Shown here in pieces: positions 1 to 62,100 of a DNA stretch of 64,000 bases; the stretch's first letter is position 1, and each line of letters opens with the position of its first letter. The notes under the pieces were generated by a model. The model was not told the origin of the DNA and ran no database searches. It was given only the letters and a program-made list of their open reading frames with translations. Position numbers and translations under genes: made by a program. Source of the stretch: Xiphias gladius (Eukaryota > Chordata > Actinopteri > Istiophoriformes > Xiphiidae); the NCBI RefSeq assembly GCF_016859285.1, contig NC_053411.1, forward strand, positions 17,922,722-17,986,721, read 5' to 3'.

Positions 1-351
1 ACCGAAATCAGTGCCACGAGGCCAAAGCGTTGAACGGGTGGGAGGGAGAATTTTAAAGCTTTTGTTTTCAACCTGTTTTTATCCGGGAAAGGGTTTCAGT
101 GAGAAGGGGGGCCGGATATGCAGCCTTGAAAACAGGAGATACATTTACAGTTGCAACCCAGTTTCTGTCCTATCACTCACCTTCTTTTTAACTGTTAGTA
201 ACTGAAGAAGCTGCTGCCCGACGTTTTTCTGGTATTTGTTTCACAGCAGACCGTCTGCACCGAAAAAACAAGCACTCATGAAAAATAAGTAAATACTCAG
301 CCCAATGCACGTTTTCTGGTAACTAACTGTCGGAAACATTCTCCGCCCCAG

Positions 352-2084
352 CTGAATGCCGACTGCCTGGACGACCTGCCGCTGGACTACGACCTGGCAC
401 TGGGCGGCGTGGGTGGGGTCGGTGTGGGCGGGGTCGGTGGAGTCGGCGCCCTGGCCCTGGAGGCCGTGGTGTCCGGGGCGTCCAGTGACGGCACGCTGAG
501 CGAGGGCAGCTCCTCGGTGGTGCTGGACCCCGGCGTAAGACGGGTCGGACTCCCGCAGGACTACCAGGACCCCGACACCCTGAGAGATAGCCCTGTGACG
601 GCCACCACCGACACACACACAGGTAACACACACTGCATATTCACTGGGTGCTGGGTCCTCGTTGTTCAGTAATGACATCAGTGGTGTCATACCGACACCT
701 AGTGGTGTTTTTGCCACATAACTTTTATTGGTGGCGTTGTAATCAAAGTTGCGTGTGCTGAACATTTTTAGAGCTTCTTATTTCCTTTATTTGATGCTTT
801 TTTTTTTTTACTGTTTAACCAGGATTTTGTGAGAAACATGAAGGAAAACAAGGAATAAGCAATCGAAAGATTCATGATATGAAAATCCAGGGAGGAAGGA
901 AGCTGTTTGATTTAATGTGAGGTTCAGATATTGATGATTTTCTTAGTTTGAGTTGTTTATTTTCACCTGCTGGCACAGCATCAGGTTGAAGACGCACCAT
1001 TACCAACTGGCTGGAGTTTGATATAGAAATACAAGAAAGTTAAAACTCTAACATTTATCGGTTTTATTCTGAAACAGATAATTAATCTGTGCTTAATCAC
1101 AGGGCTTTCGTGATTAAGTCATTTTTAAAGATTTAATTGTAAAATGATATTTATTTTACTATCTCACAGCATCAAACATCTAGAAACTTCCTGAGGGGGT
1201 TGGCTCATTGGTCAATATCAGCAGCTCTTTACTATTAATTACCTCCCCAGCTGCTGACATCACACTTTAAATAGACAGCCTGTGTTCGTCTTGTACCCTG
1301 TCAGTGTTTCCTTTATTTTAGCTCCTGTTGCTCAACCCACCGTCTAGTTCTGGAAGCTGTTACGGTTGATTTATTTATCTAATTTCCTTCTGTGTATTGA
1401 CGGGTATATTGTATGAGCCAGTGCCACATGCCGCAGCATTACAAGCCTGGACTAGTTTGAAAGGCGCGTCTTTCGCTGGGCCGTTTAAATCAAAACAAAC
1501 CCCGGCAATGAACAGTTTAACTACTTGATTCATGCTCAAATTGCGTGCTTACTATCTAATCCTGCGGTAGGTCTGTTTGCTTCCAAAGCGCAAACTAACA
1601 GCACCAGGGTCCACTTGGCAGTAGACGGATACCTTTCCTTTTTCAGGAGTCTCCTCTGGTCACGTTGTTTGGTCTGCAGCCGAGATTGACTGGACGCTTT
1701 CGCAGCAGTCAAAATAAACCAAACAGAGAAAGATAAACGCTCCAGGGTTCATTTTAACTCGGCCAAACGGGTCAGGAGGGAACGTGAAGTTTTTTATTTG
1801 TTCCACATCTGTGTTCAGGTATTTGTGTCACGTTTGCCTCCTATTCATCAAAGCAAACCTTGTTTGGGATGAATCATTTGACAGGTCTTATCGGGTCTCA
1901 TATTCAGATTCTGGTGGTCGGTCGGTGTCTTCGGTCTAATCCAGCCTTCCCTCCTCCTCTTACAGGTGAGTTTCAGCCAATGGCAAGCAGCGCCTCGGTG
2001 GCATCATTGGTCATCGCCATGGAGACGGGTCTGTCAGATGAGGAGGGGTCCATGGAGCAGTCTCAGATGGGGGACAAATCCTGA
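352..2084 (+). CDS. 3' end of an unidentified gene (last two coding exons)
   Basis: Two exons join in frame. Exon 352-622 follows a CCCCAG acceptor and ends at a GTAACA donor in phase 1. Exon 1966-2084 follows a CTCTTACAG acceptor and ends in TGA at 2082-2084. Together they give the last 129 residues of a protein whose start lies left of the window. The segment begins with an acidic, leucine-rich stretch (DCLDDLPLDYDLAL), then a Gly-Gly-Val low-complexity run, then a Ser/Thr/Asp-rich tail ending ETGLSDEEGSMEQSQMGDKS. There is no transmembrane helix and no catalytic motif, so this is probably a disordered cytoplasmic or nuclear C-terminus. The exon pair is well supported by matching phase and open frames. 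I do not recognise the family, and the neighbouring genes did not let me name it. Confidence 0.6.
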
Positions 2085-12071: not shown

Positions 12072-15000
12072 TCATCGCGTCAAAGAGTTGGAGCTGCAGA
12101 AACAGGAGAACATTTTTCAGGTTTTCAGGTACAAGCTCAAGTTTTGCTAAAAAGTTGGAGGACTTGGAGGCTGTTAGTTCGGCTCTTGTTTGCAGGGATA
12201 ATAAACGAGGGAGCTTTGAAAGGAAGGGACCACTGTACGAGGTCAAAGAACGAGACATTCTGGCTCCCGGTTGGCAAAATTTGCAGTTTTTTTTTTTGCC
12301 AGCTGAATGTTTTACCTCTTGGTTTCTCTTCTGGTTTCAGCAAACTTGTGTCTCAACAGGAAGGCGGCCACAGCCTCAGCCACCTTCACGCAAACAGACG
12401 AAGCAGAGCAATTGATTTAGGTGGTTACATGAAACTTCACTGATGGCTGTGGAGAGAACGGGTTAAAAAAAAAAAATTAGAAAGGCTCGTAATATCAGTT
12501 TATGTTGAATTTGCTTTAATTCCATTTACCTCCATGGTGGGACTAGAAAGCTCAGATGCGAATATCTCTACCCGTAAAACAGAAACTACATTATCTGCAA
12601 AGCTACATACCAACTAAAGGTAAGTGGGAAATATGCTTCTTTGTGTCGGTGTAATTTTAGCTTCAAAATTAGTACTATTAGTATTTTATTATACTACTAA
12701 TACATATTTAACGGATAAGGCTGTTGATATTCTGTGTTTTTTGTTGCCAACAAATCCTGGAACAGACCAAAATCAACAACGTTGTAGTCCATCTCTAAAT
12801 ACTTTACTGACCCTACCTTGTCCGTGGTTTTCAGCCCCAAACCCACTGGTTCCTACTGAAGAAGAAGTAAACTTTTAAAAATGGCTCACAGATATACAGG
12901 TTCTTTCCTTTTTTTTTTTTCAGAGGACTAAATAATTTACGAAAACAGTCGAGGCACTGTTATGCAATGTTTTTAGCAAAGGTCACTCAAACAGGGGGAA
13001 ATAGTGCATTTGTTGGGGACTATTTTAAGCAGCGGATTAATCCACATTTGGTGCTGTAGTGTGTGTGTGTGGGGGGGGGACTGAGTCAAAATAAACAGTT
13101 TTCAATAGTTTTTGACAACATTTTTCAGGCTTCGGATACATACACAGTACTTGTTTATGATTGGATACTTTAATCGTTGGTTTTGGCCTTTTCATGGGAT
13201 TTGTGGACAATAAGAAACATACAGAATACGCCAGACTTTTCCTGTAATAGTAGTAACTCTTCAGGGAAGAGTTTTGAGTGGATTTTTGATTTAGGAAAAG
13301 GGTTTTAGCCTTACTAAACATGGCCAACTTTTCGTTGTGCTAGTGCTTCTTTTACCTTACTCTCTACATACTCATCCTAGGCTGAGACAAAGCTTTGTTT
13401 TATGCCTGAATGCTTCAACCCCAGTAGAAAAATGTAAAAATCGTTGTTTTAGTAGACAACGATAGATACTAGAGAGTGTTCATGTAGAGTTAGGATTCAC
13501 AGTAACATTCTGTATGTGGACAGATTGGCAGGTTTGTTCTTACTTTCTCTGGTTTGTCCTCTTGTACTGCGTGACCACAGGGGGGCAGCACCTGCATCAT
13601 GAATTTACCTGGATAAAAACAGCAAGACAGGTGCACACTCTGAGTCTCTCTCTCTCTCTCTCACGGACACACACTCCTGGGCTGTCACTTCCAGCGCGGT
13701 TGTTGACTGACAGAACCAGCCGTCCCTGGAGAGGAACTGCCACCGCAAGGTGTGTGTATCTGTGTTTGTCTGAGTGCGAATGTATGCCTGTGTCCCCGGA
13801 GACGACTCTGGAGCAGCTAAGACGTCCTTCACCTTTTCCCTCACAGTTAGTGTAGAAACCCAGTGTGAAAAGAATGTCAGCTGTTCCCAGTATCACAGTG
13901 TGTCTCTACATGAGGCCTTTTTGTTTCTCCAAGACTACATTTCCCATCAGCCCTGATGACTTCTGCTTCTTTCCCCCTCGTCTTTGTGGAGGCCTGGCAT
14001 ATTGAAGGTGATATTTTACTTTTTGCTCCGTGTCAGTGATGGGGAAAAAAAACCAAAAAAAATCAAACATACTTTTGTGGCGATTCTTTTTCAGGTTTCA
14101 GCTTCTTCACGTTTTGTACCGGGTCTACACGCACTACCTCCGCATATATTGCTTGCACTTAGAGTCCAACACTGCCAAAAGGCTTCACCTCCTTCTGACA
14201 AGGCGGCTTCAGTACGTTACCAAACTAAATTCCAGTCATATAAATGGAAGCATTGCAACTTTAAACGTCTTTAATAACCCAACCAAGTTCTGTCTAACAA
14301 AGTTACGCGCTCTCGACTCGACTGCTGCTGATACCGGCTCTCCTACAGACTCGCTGCCCTTGAAACTTCCTGTGCGTCCCTACCTGCAGCCTACTGACTG
14401 AAGGGGCCGGATCCAAGTATACCGAGGCAACATAACACTCGAACTTCACAGCGCTGACCTCTTTCCTTTTTATACATTAAAGCGAATTTCCTTCCAAGCC
14501 CAACTTGATTCTGCAAGTTAATGTTGTGACCAATCCCGTAAAAGAATTTCCCAGATCATTGAAAGGGGTGCATTTGTTTTGGTGTCTGGAAATGTCCTAC
14601 CTTGCATCTGGCCAATAGTCAGATCTCTGTCCAGCCGGTCGATTCCTGGGAAGAGAAGCAGCTTGAGGTCAAGTGTGAAACATCGAGATAGTTTTCTCAG
14701 CTGTGAGACAACAAAATTAATACTGGCATTAAACAAAAAATTAGGGTTGGACATTAATATCAAAAATATTTTTCAAAGTAATAGTTTACATTCGCTAATA
14801 TACACCATCTAATACAGAGATCTCCAAATACCTACCCGCCAATAAGAGGAGTTTGGGTAGGTTGCAGGCCAGGAAGAGGTTGGACGTTCCTCTAAACCAG
14901 CCATCCCAATACTTCTCTGACTTTGACAGGTCTATACGCCACTTGTACACAGTCTGGCATGCGTACGCAAAGATAAACAGGGTAGTCGGTGAATAACCTT

Positions 15001-18000
15001 CGTAATACTCCAGGAAAAAGCAGGAAGAAGACATAAGACATTTGGGTGTGTGGATGCATCTGAGATACAGGAAATATAAAAAAGTTGAGCGGGCTACAAT
15101 GTACAAATCAAGTGTCCGTCTGCCTGTGCTGGGGACAAGTGGTGAAAGCTGACAAATAAATGAAGGTCAGTGGATTCAGAAGTTAAATCGGTATTGTTAA
15201 TGTGCGTGTCTGTGCTTCAATTTATGAGAACAATTAAAGTTTAGGAGTTGCGGTTTGGGTAATAAATGAATGTCGATGAGGGGATAATTTGAAAGTCAAT
15301 GGCGGCTTTCTCCCCAGTAAAGCAGTGCCAATCTGCACACGTGTTTAGAAATTAAGGTTTAACTTGGGTGTTAATACAAATGAATGATATTCAGCAATGT
15401 CCTATCAATGACAAATAATGCAAACAGCCATATGTATGGGTATTTGTATGTTTGCTCTTTTAATGGTATGGTTCCCTAGTGAATCTAAGTCAGTGGAATG
15501 GCAAGTAAAACAACACATTATCACAGGTAGAGACTAAATTACTAAAGAGAGAAACGTGCTTTGACAATGAATAGAATACATCCTTGAAAATGTGAAACAC
15601 TCAGAACACATAGATTGATGTCAGTGGTTAACAAAGGTTAAAGCAGGGTACAACAATGTTTCTGTGAAGACGTTTTCATACCTGGCCTTGGCTGAGGCTC
15701 ACCTCTGAGGCAGCGTTTTCTTTGTCGTTGACGTAGCTTTGATCGTAGAACTCTTCGTTGCGCTCGACGACCACGTCAGTCACCGGGCTGGGCTGCTCCA
15801 GAGTGTCAGCCTCCTCCACCTCACATCTGACGGACAGTAAGCGTGCGGAGAGGTGGAAATTATCTTAGCAATTCAGGTTTAAAGGATCTCAGTCCTGGAG
15901 GGTTTAGTCTGATGCAAGTCAGTAATCCGGACTCTGGATTCCTCTTGCCGTGGAAACACCATGCCATGTCTACGCAGAAAGCATTTCGGCTGCATTTTAT
16001 GCTCGTCCGTCCTTACATGTGTCTGACAGTACAAATGTGCTCCTACTTTAATCAATCCGAATGTCTACACGTAACGACTCGGGTCTCGGGTGTTACCCGT
16101 GCTATTTGGCCAAAATGTCTGCTTGAAGCATGTTTTTACAATATGGGCACTGAGTGTTTCGAAAACGTGGGTCACCTACAGCTCAATACTGTGCCCGAAC
16201 GCATCCTGTGTAGACACCGGTGGTATCACCAGAGCTGCAGCTGCTGCTGCTGCTGCTCTGCTAACATGCTGCGCACGCTACGCTGCCTCTGTAGACACGG
16301 TGTAATGGGTAACGATTACAGGACATATTTTACTCAGATATTTAAAAACTTGGGAGTGATGGTGAAAATCACAGGATAACTCACCAATCAGAGCCAGCCT
16401 ACCTTTTGATCTGGCCAACCATCGAGACTCTGGCAGATTCCAGGTTCCTGATTTGTCCACTCTTGACGCTGAAAGGAGAGTAACGAAGAAAAGTAAGTTG
16501 TTACTGATCCAGTTAGAAGCATTTGGGCCAACTTTGTCTTAGAGACATCCCAGTAAAACAGATTTTAATACATCGTAAAGCCATATTCAAGATTCAAGAT
16601 TGATTTAACTTTGACCCCAGCCGAGCTGGTCTGTGCCAGCACAGTCAGTGGTTGAGATGTGATTAAAAGATGGAGGACAAATGTAAAAGGACTGTTTCTG
16701 AATATAACTATACAATGATAAATTACAATCCCAGTATTGTTTTTCCAGTGCAGTGTGAATTTGGCTTTAGTCTGATTCTAGGTTTGCTGGATAATCAGCT
16801 CTTGGGCCAAGTCGTTTGTATGAGTTGGAAAATTGCTTGTTGGATGGTTGGATAGCTTCGGAAACCCGCTCCCCATACAACTTTCCAACATCGGATTAAG
16901 GGGAGTCTGTGTCTGTAAACTTCTTAAACGGATGGTCCGATTTTCTCACCCACGCCAGCTTATAGCATAATTTCACCTGTTTTTAAATGACATCACCCCC
17001 CCATCACAGCCGGCATCAGCTATAAACACTTGTGCTTTCCAACGTGGTCACACAACGTAAGAACTAGTTCTGGCAGATCATAAACCGGCCCATGGGCCCA
17101 TTTTAACTCATGCCCCTTTCCCACCAAGTCTAATTTCAAACCAGCACAGTCACTTCATGCTTCTTGGATGGATCGGATAGCTATCCAATCTAAAAAAGGT
17201 TTAGTGTTAATTGTTTTAACTAACTGGTTAGATTATTATTGTTCTGGCATTTCTGCTACCAAAGAGCCCCTTGTGTTTTCTGTATTTTATCAGGATATGA
17301 GACACCTGAAAAGTGTAAATGGGGCCTTGAACTCTCACCTCCACTCTATAGCGTGGTCCATGGACTTGAAGGACTTGGGTCTTCCCTTCAGGAAGTTCTG
17401 TATGCTGTGGAGTGCATCCATCGCACTGCCTGCCGGAGGAACAGAAGACCGATTGAGTACAATCATAAACATCTAAATATCCCAACTAAAAAAAACCACA
17501 AAAATAAAATGTGTAGGTTTTGGAGCACATCTGCTGCTCCCTACTCTCTAATACTCAGACGCTGCACACGCTTACCTTCCACGACGTCTATGGCCACCAG
17601 ACCCACAGTGGTTGGTAGCAGCATGTTGCTGGCTGTGTGCACCGCGATCGCCCCACCAACTCCGTGGCCAATCAGGACGATGGGGGGAGGAGTGTCACCA
17701 TAGCAGGCCCGAATCACATTGGCTACATCGCTGAGGGGAATGGGGGGAAAGCAGTGATGATAACGGACGGTGACAGTTATAACCATTAGAGTGGTAACAG
17801 TAGAAGGTGGAGCTGTATTTGTAGCATCACCGGCAGTAGCCGTGCAATATGTGCGGTAGCATAACAGTTGGTTTGGACATACACTGAAAGAATTTACAAG
17901 AAAATTTGTGGGTGTTTGCTCGAGAAGAACTACCCTCTTTTGCTCGGACGATATTGTTAATCTGAGATGGGAGGATTAATGGAAGCTGGATGATGTGAGT

Positions 18001-20510
18001 TTTTGTGAGTATTGTGCGCTGATACCTGGACATGGTTTGAGTTGAGAAGTCATCTGATTGGCGGACCAGAGTGGCACCTTGACAGAGAACAAAGTCTCAC
18101 AGCAATGCAACTAAAATTTCTTTATAGTGTCTGAAAATATAGAAGCACTAAAACACTGAGCCACTGAAACCATGCAGATACATTAATTTACTGTTAAAGG
18201 ACCAATGTGTAGGATTTAGTGGCATCCAGTGGTGAGGTTGCAGATCGCAACCAACTGAATACTCCTCCCCTCACCCCTCCCTTTCCAAGCCTGTAGGCGA
18301 ACCCACGGTGGCCTTCAGGTAGCAGGAAAACGCAAAAGTTTGGTTTGTCCATTCTGGGCTACTGTAGAGATTTGGTGGTGCAACATGAAGGGCTCCGTGG
18401 CAGAGGACCTGCTCCCCTATGTAGATATGAAGGGCTCTTTCTAAGCTAAAGAAAACACAACGATACTTAGTTTCAGGTGATTATACACTAATGAAAACAT
18501 AATTATGAATAATATATTCTATTTCTGCCGTTAGATTCCCTAATTCCTACACACTGCTCCTTTAAATCAGGGTGATTGAATATGTGGTACAAAATTCAGT
18601 AATACTAGTACAAGAAGGATTACGAAACATTTTGCTATATTGGCCCGAGCTTAGTTATTCCAAGTATTTCCAGTATTTGGCAGATTTTTCCCATAATTGT
18701 TGTTTTCCACATAGTCTATTCCAATTCAGAACCATTGATACTAGCCCTGGTCAAACACAGTCTCCAATTTAAACAGCCCCAATTCCTTGCATATACTGTA
18801 TGTCATGGCATTTGTATTTTTTGAAGCTGTCAAAGATGAGAGTCAAAGATTACTAAAGAGATAACCAAACCCTTTTTTTTCCTTTATGTTGCCTCACCGT
18901 GACCCCTGAGGTCCATGGCAAGTACCCTGCAGGTCACTCTGCTGGCGATGGCTGTCTGCAACACAGAAAAACACCAGGACACGCTGCTGATTTTTGGGAT
19001 GTAGCCACCATCAATCAATTGATCAGTCAGTCATTCAGTGAACCAGTCAACTGCTACTACAGATGCTCACGGCGAAGACGGCCCACGACAGGGCCGAGTG
19101 TCCCCCTCCATGCAGCAGAACCAGCAGAGGTCCATCGCTCCCCGCTTTGTAAATCCTGAAGACGTCCCCGCTGTCGGCCAACCCGACGCTCACATCCTCC
19201 ATCTGCTCAAAGTACTCCCGCCATGACACTGGCGAGTAGTCTATCTTACGGCCAACCTCACTAGTCGACATGTAGACACACAGAAACACACACACACGGT
19301 ATACTACCTACACAAACTGTATACTTTTAGCAAGAATATACCCCAGTAGATAAACAGGTTTCCAAACATTTCCCGGTGGGAGACCTTCTTTAAAAAAAAA
19401 AAAAAAAAAAAAAAAATTGGAGCATTTAGCCAACTGCCAAAGCAGCGAAAAAGGAACTCTGGTAAAAAATAAAAATTAAATATAAGACACTAATACCTTT
19501 TAATCACTGATAATTCCGGCACTCATTTTATTTGGAGGTCAGAGGGCTTGCTAACTAGCTTACCTAGCTACCTAAATGCTAAAATGGCTAGTTTGAAGGT
19601 GGAGTGTCAGGTGGGCTAACGTATAACTTGGAGCGGTGAAGTTATTAGCGGAGCATGACGCGCATGAATTTTAGCATCTTCTTGTTGTTTATACTTAACA
19701 ACAATCAATACTTTTCCTAAATTGAGTCAGGATACTGAACAGAAGTCCAACGTCGCTTAGCTAGCTTGTTTAACACTTTTAACTTCCACTATTTTGGATG
19801 AGTGCAACCAAGTTTGTCTACTCTTTCAAAGTAAACTAGCGACTGGCAGCTCAGAAAGTTGCAATAGGTCTGTACTGATGTTGCTATGCGCTTGCTTAGT
19901 TGATTAAAATGATCGACTGATTGATTTTTCACTTCAGTAATTTCCTCCTCTTTCTTTTCCTCCCCTTTCCAAGAACCAAGTGGCATAAATCGACTTGAGG
20001 AATTGTGAATCAGAATCGCTGAGCTAACTGCATCTCCCGTGTTTTTAGGAATTTGTTTTTGGTTTCCTTTTGACAACCGAAAAGTTCAAGTTAAATCCAC
20101 CCTAAGAGTCAAATAAACATTGATGACAACGTATCCTACAGGTTAGTTGTGAGCCATTTTACAGGAACACCCAGTGAACTCATAAGGACAGACCAGTGCT
20201 AACAGTGACTGAATGTGCATTTCTGGTGAGAGTTTAATTCAGTGTTGTCTTATCTAAAAATAAATCTAACAACTGGAAATTAAAATTAAACTTTTACTTC
20301 AAGCTTTTCCTAAGTATCAACTGAGTCAGAAGAAAAATGCTGCCATCCAACTTCAGTTTGTGTTTGCGGTTATTCAGTTCAAGCCTCACAATTTTGAATG
20401 ATTAATGGATTAATTTCTGACTGAGATACCCTTGTCGCTAATCTGCCTAAACGTCTGATTTGTTTTGGAGAGGTGACTTACTGCTCTGTATCAAAGTTCT
20501 CCTCCCACAT
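12072..20510 (-). CDS. ppme1: Protein phosphatase methylesterase 1-like protein lacking the catalytic serine
   Basis: PPME1 is a serine hydrolase that removes the C-terminal methyl ester of PP2A catalytic subunits. Thirteen coding exons on the minus strand: 20510-20482, 19260-19071, 18955-18898, 18077-18026, 17730-17576, 17429-17339, 16468-16403, 15826-15703, 14953-14836, 14645-14601, 13608-13544, 12383-12316, 12093-12072. They sum to 1083 bases (360 aa plus TGA), all with GT-AG sites and matching phases. Family landmarks appear in order: VGRKIDYSP, LLHGGGHSALSWAVF, MDLRGHG, IDVVEG, EKYWDGWFRG, DRLDRDLTIGQMQG, CGHAVQED, KVAEAVAAFLLRHKFAE. The triad Asp (residue 158) and His (322) are kept. 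The nucleophile elbow reads GHGVGG where the family has GHSMGG, so Gly133 replaces the catalytic Ser (codon at 17661-17663). The N-terminus is short (MWEENFDTE). The C-terminus ends RRETKSSNSLTR instead of the usual conserved tail. Family identity is certain; esterase activity is not expected. Confidence 0.85.
13645..13662 (+). repeat. (TC)n microsatellite
   Basis: Nine TC units, in the intron just upstream (minus-strand sense) of the exon carrying the triad histidine of the ppme1-like gene. Confidence 0.9.
18194..18565. mobile_element. MITE flanked by TTAA, in a ppme1-like intron
   Basis: The ends TTAAAGGACCAATGTGTAGGA and, inverted, TTAAAGGAGCAGTGTGTAGGA match at 19 of 21 positions. The element is about 372 bp, non-coding, and lies between coding exons 3 and 4. 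TTAA at both outer edges could be the target duplication, as in piggyBac-type insertion, or part of the inverted repeat. Its ends resemble those of the element at 37697-38085. Confidence 0.7.
19390..19416 (+). repeat. Poly-A tract
   Basis: About 26 As in a row. It may be a retroposon tail, but no recognisable SINE or LINE body precedes it. Confidence 0.85.
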
Positions 20511-24680: not shown

Positions 24681-25298
24681 TAACATAACATTTTCTTTTC
24701 TGTCACGATATCATCCATAATAATACAGGACGGCATCAGAGAATAGAGAATCTTTTATTACTCGTAGCGCGACAAATGGATGATACCAAACTGTTAATCA
24801 TTTTTTACTGGCTCGATGAGTAGTATGTGGTTTGGGACTAATAGCTTGGCTTGATTTTGTTGCGGTTCCTCTTATTGCTGAGAAAGGTAACATTTTGGGT
24901 GTCATTCTTGCAGAAATACCTCGTTATCGCACATTAAGTAGAATTATGTACAATTCAGTGCTGTATATAGCTTTACATTTCATTTAGTTTTTTGTGTTTT
25001 ACTTTTTGTTTTCTACTTATTATTCACTTTTTTGCATCTGTATAGATATTTAATTTTGATTTAATTTTGAATTATGGGTATTTTTCCCCATTTTTCTACA
25101 TTTTTACTTCCGATGCTTGCTCCATCCTTTTGTACCTACTGTACATTACCTAAAGTGTTATCTTATATTATCTTATGAACTATTTTTTTTTCCATCTGTC
25201 CAATCAGGTGCTGACCTTTGATTTCCAAATTGTACAAACAAAATCCAGGCTGTTTCCTGATTTCTACGGGACAGACAGTCATCATCACCATCGTCACC

Positions 25299-29309
<4,011 letters not shown>

Positions 29310-59118: not shown

Positions 59119-62100
59119 TCCCCCCTCCCTCCAGTGATTTCCATACAGCCCCTACATAAAGTATTTCTTTTAGCTTTTCATGTGTTTGAGCTGGTCGGTT
59201 GATTCTGAACGCGTCTTGCTTTGTCCAGATCCAGATTCAGACTCGGTGTTGGTGTCCAGACGGGGGATCGAGGACAAACTGGTGGAGGAGTACAGGAACT
59301 GTCACCACTATAAACAGACCAAAGCGGAGCTGGGTGGGTAGAAGAAGACCACAGGGTCGATCTCCGTACGGGTGTTCAAGTCTCATGTAACGTGTCGTTA
59401 ACAGAATAGGAGATACGAGGAGCTGCGGGTGGACTTAGGGATTTTTATGAATGTGAGCTCAAGATAAGCAAAGTGGAATTATCATCATCATCATCATTAT
59501 CATTTAATCATCAAAAGTCGGAGTAGGTAGGTATGAGCACCGATGTGACGAAACCCAGAGTCTCACACGGAAACCGCATTCAAACCTGATCGGTCACCGG
59601 AACGAGAGTAACTGTCAGTAGCTAAAGATTTTTTTTTCCACACAGAACTTTTAAAATTTGCTTTTGATTATAATAAAAACTGACTCAACCGGGAGAAATG
59701 TTTGAAGGAAAAAAAAAAAAAAAAACCTCTATTGATCTTTGCCACAAAGAACTGGTTTTTCCTGCAGAGTTCGGGCTGCGGCGTCAGCTCTTCAAACCCT
59801 GACGCGGGGGACAGTTTTACCACATATCTACGGATAAAGCTTTATTTATACCGTAATGCTCAAATATTGCTGTTTCAGTGTAGAAACAAAACTGGGACAT
59901 GGGATGTGCCTTGCATCTGCCTTTCTATGTGTAATTTTCATCTTTTGTGAACCACATTGTGTTGCATCTTTTTGTATGTTATGTACCTTATTATTATTTA
60001 ACTTTCACTCATAGGTGCAGAATTACGAACTCGAAGACATAACTTTATGAGGAATGTTGATAGGAGCTAATAAGAGTTGAAACCGTCTGTCTCTCTCAGA
60101 GAGGATAATTCAGGGTAAGCAGACGACTGCCGCCGCTCCCCTCAGAACCATCACCTACAACACCGGCTTCCTGACCCAGTTCACGTGGGTTCTCAGGAGA
60201 ACGATTCGCAACCTCCTCCTCAACCCTCAGACCTCCGTCGCTCAGGTAAGAACACACGGGCCCCGAGGTCGGAAGGTCGGCGCAGCATGGCGGCCTCTAC
60301 AGGACCCGCGGCCTCAGACGCTTGAGCCCCGGCTTCCACACTCAGTCGTTGTAACTGCTGCATCATGTCCAGTACTCGTGTATTAACAGCTGCGTTTTCT
60401 ATTCTCTTCAGGTAGCGGTGACTCTGTTCCTCGCTCTGGTTGTAGGAGCTATTTTCTTTGACGTCCAGGAGAATCAGAGTGGAATGCAGAACAGGTATTC
60501 TACTCTATTCTAGTTTGTTTTTTTTTAATTTATTATTTTTTTTAATATACAGTTGCGATCAGAAATCTTCAACCCCCCCAAAGATTTTAAGGATTTATCA
60601 ATTAAAGTTTTCCCAAAGAGCAAGATTCTGCTTCGGACGACTTCTTCATGAGTCGAGTGAGGCGTAAAATCAACACGGAAAATGCATGATGCAGTAGTTG
60701 TGTGTAACAGTACATTTTGTTAAGACAGCCATGTCACAATTATTCAACCCCTATATAATATGGCTGATTTCAAAGCTGTCTGACAGGTTTTATGGCCTAA
60801 AGTGGAGTTGAAACATAATGAAGCCTTTGGGAACTTTATAAGGATCCTTCATTTGCTTCAGCTGGGATGCGTATATATATAAACCCCACCCATGAAGGTA
60901 TTCAAGGTGAGTTGCAATCCTGGGAAAGACAAAGGATCTTCCACAAAAAGCTGAGAGGGGAGATTAGGTCATCACGCCTGAGGGGCTTTGGGTATAAGAA
61001 GGTAAGACTAAGAAGGTATAAGAAGAAGTTTAAAACTTACGGAACAGCTGCAAACCTGCCTGGCCCAACATTTCATCAAGGGCCCTTAGCAACTTAGTCA
61101 GAACAACTAAGAGGAACCCCCCCCGGGTGCAGGATGACCTGATGAAGGCTGGTACAAGTGCTTCAGTGGCAGCTATAAGACGTGACCTGAATAAACAAGG
61201 ACTTCGTGGCCGGACTCCAAGACGCACTCCACTCTGGACCACGAGGAACATCAAAAGTCGACTAGAATAGGCCAGGAGGAATCGGGATAAGACTGCAGAG
61301 TTTTGGGAGACACTTCTACGGACTGATGAAACCAAACTGGACCTGTTTGGACATATGGACCGGCGGTATGTCTGGCGTGCGAAAGGCCAGGCTTATGACC
61401 AGAAGAATACCATCCCCACGGTCAAGCATGGAGGCGGGTCACTGATGATGTGGGGCTGTGTTTCTGCGGCAGGAACTGGCGATATCGATCGTGTACCTGG
61501 CATCGCGGATTCCCAGAAATACCAGGCCATTTTAAAGAGGAACGTGACGCCTTCTGTTGACAAGTTAAACCTTGGTGATCATGGGACTTTCCGGCAAGAC
61601 AGTGATCCCGAGCCCACCCCCAAGTCAACCAAAGCCTGGTTGAGAAAAAGATCCTGGAACGTCCTGGAGAGGCCTTGTCGGTCACCAGATTTAAATCTGA
61701 CTGAGAATCTTTGGTGGGATTTTAAGAAGGCAGTTGCAGGACGGAAGCCATCAAGCATCACTGAGCTAGAGGCTTTTGCACGTGAAGAATGGGCAAAGAT
61801 TCCGATCGGGAGGTTAAGAAGCTTGCCAGCACTTACCGAAAACGTTTGTCAGAAGTTATAAAAGCCAAAGGATGCGCCACAAAGCACTGAAGCCGGGGGT
61901 TGAATAATACTGCACATGCACGTGTGTTAAGAGTTACATTTCTCATTTGAACTTCAAAGTTAAGTCAACTTCTGTTATCAAAATAACTCATATGTATCAA
62001 TAATTATTTTTTGTCATTTATTGTCATTATCTTCCATCCACATCACTGTATCATCTTTTGAGGTGAGGGGGTTGAATATTTCTGATTGCAACTCATATAT

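Follow-up and report, generated by a model that had tools for sequence, protein, structure and literature searches.

Pseudoenzymes are known among the alpha/beta-hydrolases: the NDRG proteins and the neuroligins keep the fold, lack the nucleophile, and have a binding role. Both belong to families other than that of the gene described here, and we know of no such pseudoenzyme that is a paralogue of the PP2A methylesterase. That enzyme, PME-1 (gene PPME1), is called the sole PP2Ac methylesterase in the part of the literature available to us (PMC11098961), and it is described there as both demethylating PP2A and blocking the PP2A active site (PMC9398451). In the same account, human PME-1 engages B-alpha and PR70 through its N-terminal 18 residues, and B56 through core contacts and an internal VEGIIE motif (PMC9398451). 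The human S156A mutant, as far as the available text of PMC4683032 goes, is esterase-dead and bound about 2.5 times more PP2Ac than the wild type; PP2Ac levels were 50% with S156A, 77.5% with the wild type, and 35% with mock, and the authors regarded association alone as insufficient to protect PP2Ac. According to the accessible part of PMC6120246, PP2A was inhibited in vitro by S156A but not by M335D, which binds less, and PP2Ac methylation was lowered in cells with the wild type or M335D but not with S156A. S156A is further reported to have blocked CHK1 dephosphorylation and R369D to have reduced PP2Ac binding (PMC11098961, in part). In fish, the part of a zebrafish serine-hydrolase profiling study at hand lists one ppme1 protein (PMC9786740), and in mudskipper, kingfish, amberjack, and Asian seabass tlr23a is noted as the neighbor of a "ppme1-like" gene (PMC6403153, in part). 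Among the literature matches listed for PPME1 or PME-1 and pseudoenzyme, a search with most subscription journals outside its scope, we found no description of a dead PPME1 copy.

The window (the whole stretch of 64,000 nucleotides that was analyzed) carries a PPME1-like gene on its minus strand between positions 20510 and 12072. A preliminary description had proposed 13 exons with intact GT-AG sites and an uninterrupted 360-codon frame, and the spliced model agrees with it on each point: the 13 coding exons join in register into a reading frame of 1083 nt including the stop codon, the predicted protein has 360 residues, and 0 internal stops and 0 broken splice ends were found among the 12 introns, all of which have GT-AG ends. 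Exons 3 (18898..18955), 4 (18026..18077), 6 (17339..17429), 7 (16403..16468), 9 (14836..14953), and 13 with the stop codon (12072..12093) are placed by the gene model, and exon 8 has a further in-frame donor 21 nt downstream. The N-terminus is uncertain, exon 1 (20482..20510, 29 nt, predicted start MWEENFDTE) being a prediction from a consensus donor and phase; translation might alternatively start within an extended exon 2 (MSTSEVGRK...). In the 7.7 kb upstream of exon 2 there was no convincing N-terminal exon of the canonical type, the best match having an E value of 0.05 and lying on the opposite strand. The predicted protein is 65% identical to human PME-1 (217 of 333 aligned residues), matches the human PME-1 chain 7soy_P over its full length (E 2.3e-147), and contains an alpha/beta-hydrolase domain that scores above the cut-off for both PF12697 (91 bits) and PF00561 (62.5 bits). 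Judged from these comparisons, the gene belongs to the PPME1 family by descent. Scanning the window against Rfam and for tRNA genes gave 0 matches in each case.

The catalytic nucleophile is missing from this protein. Exon 5 (17576..17730, minus strand) translates to DVANVIRACYGDTPPPIVLIGHGVGGAIAVHTASNMLLPTTVGLVAIDVVE and includes the nucleophile elbow, which reads GHGVGG as the preliminary description had it; the plus strand shows TCC at 17661-17663, corresponding to a minus-strand GGA codon (Gly133) in place of the catalytic serine (human Ser156). The other two members of the triad, also claimed earlier, were both located, D158 in exon 5 and H322 in exon 11 (13544..13608), equivalent to human Asp181 and His349, so that the Ser-Asp-His triad of a PP2A methylesterase is broken at the serine and retained at the aspartate and histidine. 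The pocket motif HGGGHS, with its HGGG encoded by exon 2 (19071..19260), is intact, and the elbow glycine has no Ser, Cys, or Thr among its four neighbors on either side. By the codon table, GGA is at least two changes from every serine codon, and the two adjacent codons GGA-GTT differ from the AGC-ATG of the canonical fish copy at four of six bases, the codon next to GGA being itself two bases apart. A single sequencing error therefore cannot account for GGA, and the earlier statement to that effect stands. With the nucleophile lost no acyl-enzyme would be expected to form, and loss of catalysis is well supported.

A second copy with the serine is present in the same genome. Our search covered 690.8 Mb in 1298 contigs and returned 13 exon matches among 20 scored candidates; nine represent the window gene, on contig C12, and four represent one gene on contig C17. 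When rebuilt, the latter has 14 coding exons and encodes 377 residues with the elbow GHSMGG. Its neighbors, named by eye, are a rab6a-like gene, a dnajb13-like gene, and two ucp-like genes. In the sea bass, DNAJB13 and PPME1 are described as flanking UCP2 and UCP3 (PMC3428666, in part), and because the neighbors match that locus we take the C17 gene to be the canonical ppme1. The true ppme1 that had been proposed to lie elsewhere was thus found, which makes the Gly copy in the window an extra paralogue and rules out a single-copy gene with an odd active site. The two swordfish proteins are identical at 206 of 353 positions, and their genes have exon phases in common. The window copy resembles canonical PPME1/PME-1 of human and fish in full-length homology, exon phases, HGGG, the catalytic Asp and His, Met335, and Arg369, whereas it differs in Ser156 (Gly), Met157 (Val), a replaced N-terminus, an eroded B56 motif, and a missing AT-AC intron. 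That intron is 337 nt long in the canonical copy (C17:18580121-18580457) and has the ends ATATCCTT ... TTCCTTGACTACCTTGAAC, which we take to be U12-type; the two canonical exons around it correspond to the single fused exon 2 of the window paralogue. Third codon positions are richer in GC in the window copy (0.66) than in the canonical one (0.49).

The neighbors of the window gene, again assigned by eye, are RNF150-, GPRIN3-, PPM1K-, and ABCG2-like. Two long open frames at 25215-29306 on the plus strand, of which the second carries a GRIN_C domain (PF15235), make up the GPRIN-like gene, and to its right follow ppm1k-like and abcg2-like genes, recognized by eye and with PF00005 at its cut-off; this gene order presumably recalls human 4q22. 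On the left, an RNF150-like gene ends at the window edge (about 289-669, plus strand, by eye) and an FBXW7-like exon was seen by eye in the far left flank on C12, surroundings that we take to recall human 4q31. Remnants of a Tc1/mariner-like transposase were recognized by eye at 61034-61858. An origin as the second ppme1 from the teleost genome duplication of the ucp2/ucp3/ppme1 locus was considered and gained no support from neighbors in common with that locus or its ucp3L partner: none of the 21 ucp matches from 47 candidates lies on C12, the strong ones being on C17, C7, and C15, and no ucp match was found in the 284 kb around the window gene, a stretch that reads N in parts. No tlr23 neighbor was found either, the nearest listed TIR match on C12 (18 matches, 30 candidates scored) being about 300 kb away. 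The ppme1-like genes of the four teleosts, which are said to lie beside tlr23a, are similar to the window gene by name and are candidates for the same paralogue (PMC6403153, in part). When fish relatives were sought in other collections, 0 of 7 pattern matches from the protein query and 0 of 166 from an alignment query were confirmed among genome contigs; a viral-contig collection gave 0 matches.

Comparison of the two swordfish copies points to an old split. Over 333 codons pS is 0.803, which is saturated and gives no finite dS, and pN is 0.250; pN falls at 0.210 over the 293 core codons, defined as those outside human 238-283. Saturated synonymous sites alongside such a pN indicate an old split with constraint. 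In a 333-site alignment of the human, canonical, and window proteins, 194 sites are identical in all three and 29 are all different, and the replacements found in a single lineage number 77 in the window protein, 23 in the canonical protein, and 10 in the human protein; with three sequences and no outgroup, these counts (10/23/77/29) do not root the duplication. BLOSUM62 scores are at least 0 for 51 of the 77 window-only replacements and, within the core, for 39 of 56, where randomly changing the canonical codons, taken as the ancestor, would be expected to give 50% (P = 0.0023). On this evidence the window copy is evolving faster than the canonical one, yet it is far from unconstrained. The dN/dS-type and BLOSUM62 tests span the whole branch between the two paralogues rather than the period after the serine was lost, and since only two paralogues with saturated synonymous sites are compared, dN/dS is uninformative about that later time.

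The features used by human PME-1 for docking are partly retained. Exon 10 (14601..14645) encodes DLTIGQMQG, in which the Met equals human Met335, a PP2Ac-docking residue (PMC6120246, in part), and the longer segment DLTIGQMQGKF is unchanged; exon 12 (12316..12383) encodes the equivalent of human Arg369 (PMC11098961, in part). Both residues are identical in the window protein, as is Val343, and binding to PP2Ac may accordingly be conserved; Gln340 and Gln346, close to the PP2Ac contacts, are changed. The N-terminus is short and different from the docking segment of the human and canonical proteins. In the internal loop encoded by exon 8 (15703..15826), the B56 motif is degenerate, with human VEGIIE (motif from PMC9398451, in part) replaced by TDVVVE. 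The window copy keeps five of the 11 B56 contacts common to the human and canonical fish proteins, compared with 194 of 271 over all shared sites (P = 0.058), a borderline result that hints at erosion of the B56 contacts; at human Val251 the canonical fish copy has Gly too. Among the closest known counterparts is the human S156A mutant (7SOY; Ala also in 3C5W; PMC4683032 and PMC6120246, in part), likewise a nucleophile-free and otherwise intact PP2A-docking protein. There the alanine is engineered and the docking regions are the protein's own, whereas in the window copy the glycine is natural, the docking regions are altered, and binding is putative.

Taken together, the window gene is probably a retained, esterase-dead, old ppme1 paralogue whose product binds PP2A like the laboratory mutant S156A. 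The paralogue product would be expressed and fold, dock, like human S156A, on the catalytic subunit of PP2A, occlude the phosphatase site, and shield the methylated tail without demethylating it, so that the dead paralogue may work against or alongside true Ppme1. Its attraction to the B55, PR70, and B56 holoenzymes would be weaker, and for that reason we propose that it acts mainly on the core enzyme or the free catalytic subunit. The preliminary description had likewise suggested an inactive but kept copy, perhaps a PP2A-binding pseudoenzyme. That the gene is an extra, intact, and constrained paralogue upholds part of this suggestion, for which S156A is a precedent (PMC4683032 and PMC6120246, in part); the role on PP2A we only infer.

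Whether the copy has been kept since the loss of the serine depends on how it reached GGA. The first step of every two-step route from Ser to GGA removes the serine, so at least one later change hit the codon. We estimate that an undefended copy stays intact (5% limit) for about 15 to 25 substitutions and that, under drift, the joint chance of the gene being intact and of this codon being hit again is at most about 0.002-0.003, a figure that depends on our setting of the indel share at 0.05 to 0.15 per substitution and on our own rate assumptions and that leaves out multi-base mutations, which would weaken it. A relaxed copy, or a pseudogene so young that it is still intact, with its serine lost recently and its frame unguarded since, could explain why the window protein changes faster than the canonical one (77 versus 23 unique replacements at 333 sites) and why Asp and His are still there. 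This history nonetheless seems unlikely, as it must accommodate GT-AG ends in 12 of 12 introns without a stop, an extra substitution after the loss of Ser (for which our drift estimate gives a P of about 0.003 or less), and an adjacent codon that is likewise two bases off the canonical copy. The earlier proposal that the copy is kept agrees with the intact gene and with constraint at the protein level over the whole branch; for the time after the serine was lost it is an estimate from drift, and retention of the protein is fairly supported.

The replaced N-terminal segment, the eroded B56 motif, and the intact HGGGHS pocket would also suit a pseudoenzyme with a role away from PP2A, through another partner or as a sensor whose empty pocket receives lipids or small molecules, but Met335, Arg369, and DLTIGQMQGKF are unchanged and we consider this role rather improbable. 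Continued esterase activity with a different nucleophile or by a water-mediated mechanism is very improbable: the retained Asp, His, and HGGG motif would favor it, but the sequence around the elbow glycine offers no Ser, Cys, or Thr up to four residues away, and cells with human S156A, unlike those with the wild type or M335D, are described as having no lowering of PP2Ac methylation (PMC6120246, in part). Although the data come from one assembly only, we give almost no credence to an error of sequencing or assembly or to an allele carried by this individual alone, given the four of six differing bases in two adjacent codons and the lack of an alternative contig for the gene in the 20 candidates that the genome search scored.

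Several observations weigh against the reading of the window gene as a retained, PP2A-binding dead paralogue. Its faster evolution (77 versus 23 unique replacements) is compatible with a late relaxation of constraint, a late loss of Ser could explain the kept Asp and His, Gln340 and Gln346 close to the PP2Ac contacts are replaced, and loss of the N-terminal and B56 docking features, the latter borderline, could mean weaker PP2A binding overall. S156A also rescues PP2Ac levels only in part, according to the available text of PMC4683032, and hence a dead copy does not do everything that PME-1 does. As a more tentative extension, which we think possible though doubtful, the paralogue could be a natural anti-PME-1, an inborn counterpart of the S156A mutant found throughout the teleosts without its nucleophile, trapping PP2A with a methylated tail and tuned to the core enzyme over the holoenzyme by the loss of docking motifs. 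Demethylation and active-site blocking by PME-1 are hard to separate in cells. If the pseudoenzyme reading is true, a natural copy that lacks only demethylation would offer a genetic system, with knockout of either fish copy, for separating demethylation from blocking or shielding, and it would add one PP2A regulator to the pseudoenzymes of the alpha/beta-hydrolase fold.
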